DNA of 64,000 nt from Pseudomonadales bacterium (GTDB lineage: Bacteria > Pseudomonadota > Gammaproteobacteria > Pseudomonadales > Azotimanducaceae). Made by a program: the position numbers and the translations under genes. Positions 22,969 through 27,065 of this stretch are shown here, in pieces (position 1 is the stretch's first letter; each line of letters opens with the position of its first letter). The stretch covers positions 1,860,001 through 1,924,000 of the forward strand of contig WLWP01000001.1 of the NCBI GenBank assembly GCA_012103505.1, given 5' to 3'. The notes under the pieces are model-generated. The model saw only the letters and a program-made list of their open reading frames with translations, did not search any database and was not told the origin of the DNA.

Positions 22969-23310
22969 TTACGCGAACACCTCGCTATAGGCGTCCTCAT
23001 TGAAGCCAACTAACAGAGTCTTCCCAACCACTGCTGTTGGTGCGCGCAAGTTACCAGTTGTGCCGAGCATTGCAGTGACCGCATCATCACTCGCATTCTT
23101 ACCACCTTTGAACTCCACGACCTTCTTGCCTTTCATGGTCACAACGCGCGTGGCTTTATTAACTAGCTCACGAGCGTCATCCGCCTGCAATTTTTTGCTG
23201 GCTGAAACCTGTTCTTTGATTTCTACTTTGTTGGCTTCCAAAAACTTGGATGCTTTCTTACAGCCAGTTCAGCCACCTCGAAAATAGTACCAGTCAATAG
23301 TCTTAGCCAT
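22969..23310 (-). CDS. ArsC/Spx-like thioredoxin-fold selenoprotein (in-frame UGA at codon 14)
   Basis: 113 residues if the UGA at 23269-23271 is read as selenocysteine. The start is ATG 23310 with AAGGAAG 8-9 bases upstream. The protein begins MAKTIDWYYFRGG, then Sec14-Thr-Gly-Cys17, a UxxC redox site where ArsC/Spx relatives have CxxC or Cys. The rest fits that family: KKASKFLEANKVEI, the cis-Pro loop NLRAPT and the C-terminus LLVGFNEDAYSEVF, close to the VGYNED ending of Spx. A SECIS-like hairpin follows the UGA (separate entry). Without Sec insertion only an N-terminally cut frame of 90 codons from 23241 would be called, losing the active site. It is probably a thiol/selenol oxidoreductase; the partner is unknown. 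NUDIX gene 137 bases upstream on the same strand. Confidence 0.9.
23232..23271 (-). promoter_or_regulatory. UGA selenocysteine codon with bacterial SECIS-like hairpin
   Basis: On the minus strand, UGA is at 23271-23269. The inner stem UCCAA / UUGGA (23250-23246 with 23241-23237) closes a 4-base loop GUUU, and a second stem UGGCU / AGCCA (23266-23262 with 23236-23232) encloses it with an 11-base bulge on one side. The loop starts with GU, and its G lies 23 bases after the UGA, inside the 16-37 base window known for bacterial SECIS elements recognised by SelB. Structure was paired by eye. Confidence 0.75.
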
Positions 23311-25552: not shown

Positions 25553-26206
25553 ATGAACGTATCTGACGCAGTTGTTGCGCGAAAATCGATTCGAAGATTT
25601 TTAGACAAACCGGTGAGCGACGATCTAATTCGTGAGTTGTTAACCAAGGCCGCGCGAGCACCATCAGGAGGCAATCTACAACCATGGCGCGTGTATGTTA
25701 TTAACGGTGACACGACCACCCGGTTTCTAGACTTCTTGAAAACTTCTGAGATCCAAGACAGCGCAGAATATGCCGTCTACCCGCCGGATCTAAAATCCCC
25801 TTACCGCGACTCTCGCTTTAAAGTCGGTGAAGACATGTACGAGCTACTCGGCATACCGCGCGATGACAAACCGTCTCGCTACGCCCACCTAGCACGAAAT
25901 TTCGAATTTTTTGGAGCCCCGGCGGGCTTCTTTTGTTTTGTCGACCGCATAATGGGTCCACCACAGTGGTCCGACCTCGGCATGTTTTTGCAAACTTTTA
26001 TGTTGCTAGCCCAAGAGGCTGGGTTAGATACATGCGCCCAGGAAGCTTGGGCAAACAAAGCTCAAAGCACTGCGGCGTTCGTCAACGCACCTGAAGAACT
26101 GATGCTCTTCTGTGGGATGGCAATCGGGTACAAAGACCCCGAACAACCGGTAAACACCCTCGTATCGGATCGAGAACCGCTCGATGCATGGGTTACCTTT
26201 ACTTGA
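25553..26206 (+). CDS. Nitroreductase family FMN enzyme
   Basis: 217 residues. The FMN-binding N-terminus is VVARKSIRRFLDKPVSDD with the second phosphate contact in APSGGNLQPWRVYV, both typical. MFLQTFMLLAQEAGLDTCAQEAW is the dimer helix. Such enzymes reduce nitro groups, quinones or enones with NAD(P)H. Its final 19 bases overlap the start of the next gene, a polysaccharide deacetylase in the same direction. Motif and length are complete, so it is probably functional. Substrate not predictable. Confidence 0.9.
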   Translation: MNVSDAVVARKSIRRFLDKPVSDDLIRELLTKAARAPSGGNLQPWRVYVINGDTTTRFLDFLKTSEIQDSAEYAVYPPDLKSPYRDSRFKVGEDMYELLGIPRDDKPSRYAHLARNFEFFGAPAGFFCFVDRIMGPPQWSDLGMFLQTFMLLAQEAGLDTCAQEAWANKAQSTAAFVNAPEELMLFCGMAIGYKDPEQPVNTLVSDREPLDAWVTFT

Positions 26207-27065
26207 GGAGAATCTTCTTCGGCCGAAATCGCGCCCAGATCCTGCTTTACCATCGTGTCGTCGCCGACGACACGCCGCCCTTTCTGCTTTCGACACTCAG
26301 TGGTGAGCTGGTACGACAGCAGGTTTTTAAGAGCCACCTTGACTGGCTGCGCCGCCGCTACCAAATCTGTTCTTTGGATGACCTGCTCAAAGATCCAAAC
26401 AACAAAAATAAACTCGCGATCACTTTTGATGACGGTTTCGTCGACAACCATACCTACGCGTTGCCGGCTCTCGAAGAAACACCGGCAACGATTTTCATGA
26501 TCCAGGGTTCGGTCGGCGACATGCACGGAATGCGTGAACACCGAATCGCCCGATGGCTTGCCGCGCAAGAATCTCTGCCACCCCAGATTGAACCTAACCT
26601 AAAACCAAAAAAACCTTACAGAAAGCTGTTCAGTGGTTCGCATCCCATTCCGAAGCAGACCAAACAGAGATGCTGTCAGAAACAGACTCGAGCGAAGATC
26701 GATATCTAAACGCGACAGAGATCGAAGCTCTTATCGCAGCGGGGGTTTCAATTCAATCCCATGGCGTCAGCCACACACCGTTGGTTCAATTAAGTGCTTC
26801 AGAAGTAGAGAGCGAACTCAGAGGCTCGAAACAAGGGCTAGAACAACTCACATCCCGCGAAATTCGCCATTACGCATATCCAATCGGCCGAGTGGATGAC
26901 TTCAACCAAACCCACGCGAAATTGGTCGAAACCGTAGGTTACCAAGCAGCATTCACTGCAATTGCCCAACCAATTTCGGACCCGCTAGACCTATTCCAAA
27001 TTCCCCGGCTTGGGACAAGAGAGAGCAATAGACACCTACGCAGGAGACTCGGCGCGCCGTTTTAG
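26188..27065 (+). pseudogene. Polysaccharide deacetylase (NodB-like), interrupted by a -1 frameshift at A_AAA_AAA
   Basis: Frame one (from ATG 26188) carries ILLYHRV and the NodB motif TFDDGFVDNH, and passes through NLKPKKPY before reading into an unrelated end at 26709. Frame two continues the family: LQKAVQWFASHSEADQTEML, then motif SIQSHGVSHTPLV (metal-binding His pair) and IRHYAYPIGRVDDF. The shift point is the run of seven A at 26607-26613, in the phase cc-A_AAA_AAA-cc, which is the classical -1 slippery heptamer. A -1 slip, or one missing A in an original eight-A run, gives a 292-residue enzyme. It would remove N-acetyl groups from a polysaccharide. Indel is the simplest reading; programmed frameshifting is possible. 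The gene overlaps nitroreductase. Confidence 0.75.

Follow-up and report, generated by a model that had tools for sequence, protein, structure and literature searches.

ArsC-like proteins containing selenocysteine (Sec) are already on record in the accessible parts of the literature. UxxS arsenate reductases are among the new selenoproteins of PMC1088965, and ArsC-like selenoproteins, together with a distant ArsC homologue, are described from deltaproteobacteria in PMC1794560. In the 2008 ocean survey PMC2398784, an 'Arsenate reductase 1' with a UxxS motif is kept separate from an 'Arsenate reductase 2' (cd03032) with a UxxC motif, the latter comprising 42 selenoprotein sequences and 238 Cys homologues. 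A literature search on the names of the NF041106 family led to a single paper, a 2026 review (PMC13188914), the accessible text of which tabulates an 'Arsenate reductase-like protein, NF041106, UxxC' with reference 61. Since the reference just ahead of number 62 in that review carries the identifier PMC2398784, NF041106 and the 'Arsenate reductase 2' of the ocean survey are likely one family, a match made via the citation and not via sequence. The gene analyzed here lies in a 64-kb stretch of bacterial DNA (the window, meaning the whole stretch) and is most likely real and of this already described kind, an ArsC-like UxxC selenoprotein.

We consider it highly probable, at roughly 95%, that the gene at 22969-23310 (minus strand) encodes a thioredoxin-fold selenoprotein of the NF041106 family, that its in-frame UGA is read as Sec via SelB, tRNA-Sec and a hairpin, and that its UxxC motif has a redox role. 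When the TGA at 23271-23269 is translated as Sec, the frame yields 113 residues followed by TAA, with the motif U14-T-G-C17 in which the UGA supplies the first UxxC residue. The 113-codon frame from ATG 23310 to TAA 22969 proposed in a first-pass annotation of the same DNA is thereby reproduced. Two of its further claims held as well: a Shine-Dalgarno-like AAGGAAG, recognized by eye, precedes the ATG at 23324-23318 (minus strand) with a spacing of seven bases, and ordinary gene calling reduces the gene to a fragment, the table-11 listing of open reading frames (ORFs) containing solely a 90-codon ORF from TTG 23241. A TAAGGAA is present at a comparable position in L050, one of the relatives described below. 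An in-frame TGA accompanied by UxxC or CxxU is, on its own, within chance expectation: a mechanical scan of the window for such frames with a start codon, at least 8 codons ahead of the TGA and at least 60 beyond it returned eight, the selenoprotein frame among them. The case for the gene therefore depends on comparison with relatives, and the TGA frame is significant because of homology.

By profile, the read-through protein falls within NCBIfam NF041106, 'ArsC family (seleno)protein' (ArsC_rel_Se_1), where its match spans the whole model (positions 1-107 of 107) and, at 115.7 bits, clears the cut-off of 85; the 90-codon fragment by itself stays under that cut-off, at 76.6 bits. The match to Pfam ArsC (PF03960) is distant, at 21.0 bits against a gathering score of 24, and that to Spx/MgsR (TIGR01617), at 39.5 bits, also falls short of its curated cut-off of 75.05. 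Among solved structures, the best match by sequence is 2m46, a putative arsenate reductase (E 4.4e-6), with Spx chains next. The ArsC/Spx relationship claimed at first pass is thus borne out by sequence and, moderately, by fold (Foldseek), and the suggestion of a known rather than a new family is right by the NF041106 score.

Scanning genome contigs with the window protein yielded 20 related loci. Seventeen of them (L050-L066) carry TGA at the same codon, followed by xxC, and with scores of 106.9 to 138.4 bits all 17 exceed the NF041106 cut-off; by record title they come from Gammaproteobacteria or its subgroups, Alphaproteobacteria, Myxococcota and delta lineages, and Planctomycetota. The remaining loci, L067, L068 and L069, match weakly (28-32% identity) and have Cys in place of Sec. 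L067, the one locus of these three that was scored against the profiles, reaches 38.7 bits with NF041106 and 87.6 bits with TIGR01617, above the latter's cut-off, and its scores place it in TIGR01617. In a sample of the window's order, 84 of 194 genomes gave a match at E 0.001 or better and four of 194 a match above the NF041106 cut-off, these four being the window's own genome, two others from its genus and another from its family. Each of the four matches, the window's counted, contains one TGA, and translations of the other three (L070-L072) place it at the first position of UxxC. The class and phylum sets are drawn and incomplete samples; in them, one of 274 genomes and, at E 1e-12, one of 398 genomes, respectively, exceeded the cut-off, in both cases the window's own with its TGA. 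Other matches listed in the class, order and phylum samples lie far under the cut-off. No Cys version above the NF041106 cut-off was found among the 274 class, 194 order and 398 phylum genomes sampled, and a search of phage records for the family gave no match.

Conservation extends to both sides of the UGA. A protein alignment of 21 rows, comprising 20 family members and the outgroup L067 and excluding L068, L069 and L056 (which is nearly identical to L055), has nine invariant columns, namely Y9, residue 14, C17 and six others, with W7 and R11 nearly invariant. The segment ahead of the UGA is therefore a conserved protein segment; poor conservation there had been named at first pass as a point that would speak against a selenoprotein, and conservation is not poor. 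Relative to L050 (91% identity), codon differences number 45 synonymous to 8 nonsynonymous over the 99 codons that follow the UGA, and 4 to 2 over the 13 codons ahead of it. From these sequence comparisons, the UGA has very probably been retained as a selenocysteine codon. The L050 contig (NHEC01000067.1) is titled Planctomycetes bacterium TMED75 and has several neighboring genes in common with the window; given these genes and the 91% protein identity, it has probably been placed in the wrong bin.

The machinery for Sec insertion, proposed at first pass as a check on the genome and its absence as a point against a selenoprotein, is present with all four genes on the window's own contig, each matched above cut-off. 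selB lies at 913803-915629, tRNA-Sec (selC) at 913659-913747, selD at 905616-906518 within a longer frame, and selA is represented by a match to its N-terminal-domain model at 916859-916969, inside an open frame of 467 codons. Because the tRNA-Sec family model also gives above-cut-off matches in 5 of 14 control genomes, the independent ARAGORN call with anticodon UCA matters. SelB and tRNA-Sec are above cut-off in all seven tested genomes of the window's bacterial family, four of which have the selenoprotein gene; the remaining three gave no NF041106-family match at E 0.001, so the presence of the gene is not exactly tied to that of the machinery. The selD gene itself occupies one long frame with, by eye, an oxidoreductase-like domain in front, and it reads RCGGCGAKI, hence Cys and not Sec, in what we take to be the active-site region.

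Bacterial SECIS elements have, according to the accessible text of the review, a loop of 3-9 nt with G in its first two positions, located 16-37 nt from the UGA, and a stem of at least 4 bp (PMC13188914). The hairpin 3' of the UGA at 23234-23253 (minus strand), TCCAA[GTTT]TTGGA, with a 5-bp stem and its loop 23 nt past the UGA, fits this geometry; beyond the stem, outer G-C and C-G pairs follow across a mismatch. Taken alone, the window sequence gives p 0.038 for the fixed hairpin, and a 57-base stretch starting at the UGA has a minimum free energy (MFE) fold with different pairing (z -1.61), equaled or bettered by 15 of 200 shuffles, so that the hairpin evidence is weak for the window by itself. 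The family comparison covers 21 sequences (the window, L050-L066 and L070-L072), each cut from its TGA and all above the family cut-off. Bases G27 and T28 are invariant in all 21, and a stem of at least five contiguous pairs with a loop of 3 or 4 from base 27 forms in 17, compared with a mean of 2.07 and a maximum of 6 sequences in 1000 synonymous-codon shuffles, kinship being uncorrected. The other four do not reach 5 bp at this position: L057 has 4 bp there, and L052, L060 and L066 form 8, 7 and 4 bp, respectively, around a loop that begins one base sooner, the shuffle null applying to the fixed position. As judged by eye, stem sequences vary by group (TCCAA/TTGGA vs CGCAGGG/CCTTGCG), meaning that both arms change together. 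A SECIS-like hairpin is thus present across the NF041106 family beyond synonymous-shuffle expectation.

An AlphaFold2 model computed with the family alignment (mean pLDDT 88.2, pTM 0.79) displays a thioredoxin-like order of strands and helices, with residue 14 just ahead of the first helix (15-26) and a middle part in which one helix is accompanied by two strands (55-60 and 63-68). The best nine Foldseek matches, at probability 1.00, comprise eight Spx or Spx-named chains (3l78 among the Spx-named) and one ArsC-related chain; TM-scores by query are moderate (0.53-0.57 overall and 0.53-0.56 to Spx), rmsd values range from 4.5 to 7.3, and E is at most 0.001 for four of them. The top matches include complexes of Spx with the RNA polymerase alpha C-terminal domain. 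Sec insertion, chemistry and substrate in the window protein, as we infer them, would take the following course. The ribosome would decode the UGA as Sec through SelB, tRNA-Sec and the hairpin just downstream; Sec14 would then act as the attacking residue on an oxidized substrate such as a disulfide, leaving Cys17 to resolve the intermediate in the manner of UxxC redoxins.

Several other explanations of the locus can be weighed against this evidence. It might be a pseudogene or truncated gene in which the UGA is a true stop and a shorter product, or none, is made. Such an account could point to the TTG start of the downstream 90-codon ORF and to the fact that similar TGA frames are not rare in the mechanical scan, but it is extremely improbable in light of a TGA shared at this codon by the window and 20 relatives above the family cut-off, a protein conserved on both sides of it, codon change that is mostly synonymous, and Sec machinery on the gene's own contig. 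If the gene is accepted as encoding a selenoprotein, its family name and the distant Pfam ArsC match would suggest a selenium-dependent arsenate reductase that detoxifies arsenate. ArsC uses the Arg preceding its conserved proline. All 20 family rows instead read RAP, with Ala ahead of that proline, vs KRP with Arg in the outgroup L067, and this makes arsenate reduction doubtful. The nearest folds, moreover, are Spx and an uncharacterized ArsC-related protein, and no ars gene was found among the six window neighbors scanned, so that we judge a role in arsenate detoxification unlikely.

The fold matches raise a further alternative, namely that the protein is a transcription regulator which, like Spx, senses oxidation via a Sec-Cys bond and binds RNA polymerase. 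This would be in keeping with best PDB fold matches that are Spx, some of them with the RNA polymerase alpha C-terminal domain, and with the TIGR01617 match. That match is, however, far below its cut-off and may come from the common fold alone, and the middle part of Spx differs from the one helix and two strands of the model; a regulatory function of this type is therefore improbable. A role as a thiol-selenol oxidoreductase, glutaredoxin/Spx-like in character, is more likely than one in arsenate reduction.

The accessible literature on the NF041106 family names no redox partner, and the gene neighborhood provides one possible lead inside a single lineage. Judging from L051-L053, this lineage would be a marine gammaproteobacterium with ties to the K189A clade. 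A NUDIX gene and a thiolase precede the selenoprotein gene on its own strand, and a convergent phosphotransferase-family gene lies downstream; the latter group recurs in five loci (window, L050, L053, L054 and L056) at varying distance. A nitroreductase-family gene (PF00881 by profile match), a possible functional partner only, is located at 25553-26206 (plus strand). In the window and in L050 it sits on the strand opposite the selenoprotein gene, about 2.2 kb upstream (2242 and 2194 bases, respectively), and a nitroreductase-family gene is found directly downstream on the same strand in L051 (12 bases), L071 (173) and L072 (59). The window, L051 and L071 copies match PF00881, those of L050 and L072 were joined by BLAST, and the window and L071 copies are 71% identical. 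In the other loci, no nitroreductase was found within the stretches examined, which for L070-L072 covered 1.5 kb on each side. Clustering of neighboring ORFs of at least 80 aa over 21 sequences, in which antisense ORFs over the selenoprotein gene also cluster and were ignored, revealed no neighbor group forming a common operon across phyla. That the ArsC-like selenoprotein and the neighboring flavoprotein of the nitroreductase family form a selenium-dependent redox pair in the window's lineage is a tentative and unlikely proposition. Separately, a polysaccharide-deacetylase-like protein appears to be split over two overlapping plus-strand frames, 26188-26709 (a weak PgaB match) and 26670-27065 (assigned by eye); the split at 26188-27065 would be either a frameshift or a sequencing error.

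Existing knowledge of selenoproteins is not altered by the window gene. The analysis confirms a further case of a gene cut short by an ordinary table-11 ORF listing, and codon-level controls back the Sec reading. With Arsenate reductase 1 of the Sargasso Sea and GOS sets, the window protein shares an ArsC-type sequence and Sec at the active site (PMC1088965, PMC2398784), but the motif there is UxxS and not UxxC, as far as the accessible text of PMC2398784 goes. With the Spx/MgsR and ArsC-related proteins (TIGR01617, PF03960), it has in common a thioredoxin-like fold, a redox motif that starts the first helix, and GNL...P and VGFNED-type ends; it differs from them in scoring under both curated cut-offs and in the family's Ala vs Arg ahead of the conserved proline, the Arg being represented by a single outgroup row. 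From the members of NF041106 no substantial difference was found, and the window protein resembles them in its full-length match, in a UxxC motif with Sec, and in a size equal to that of the other members fetched.
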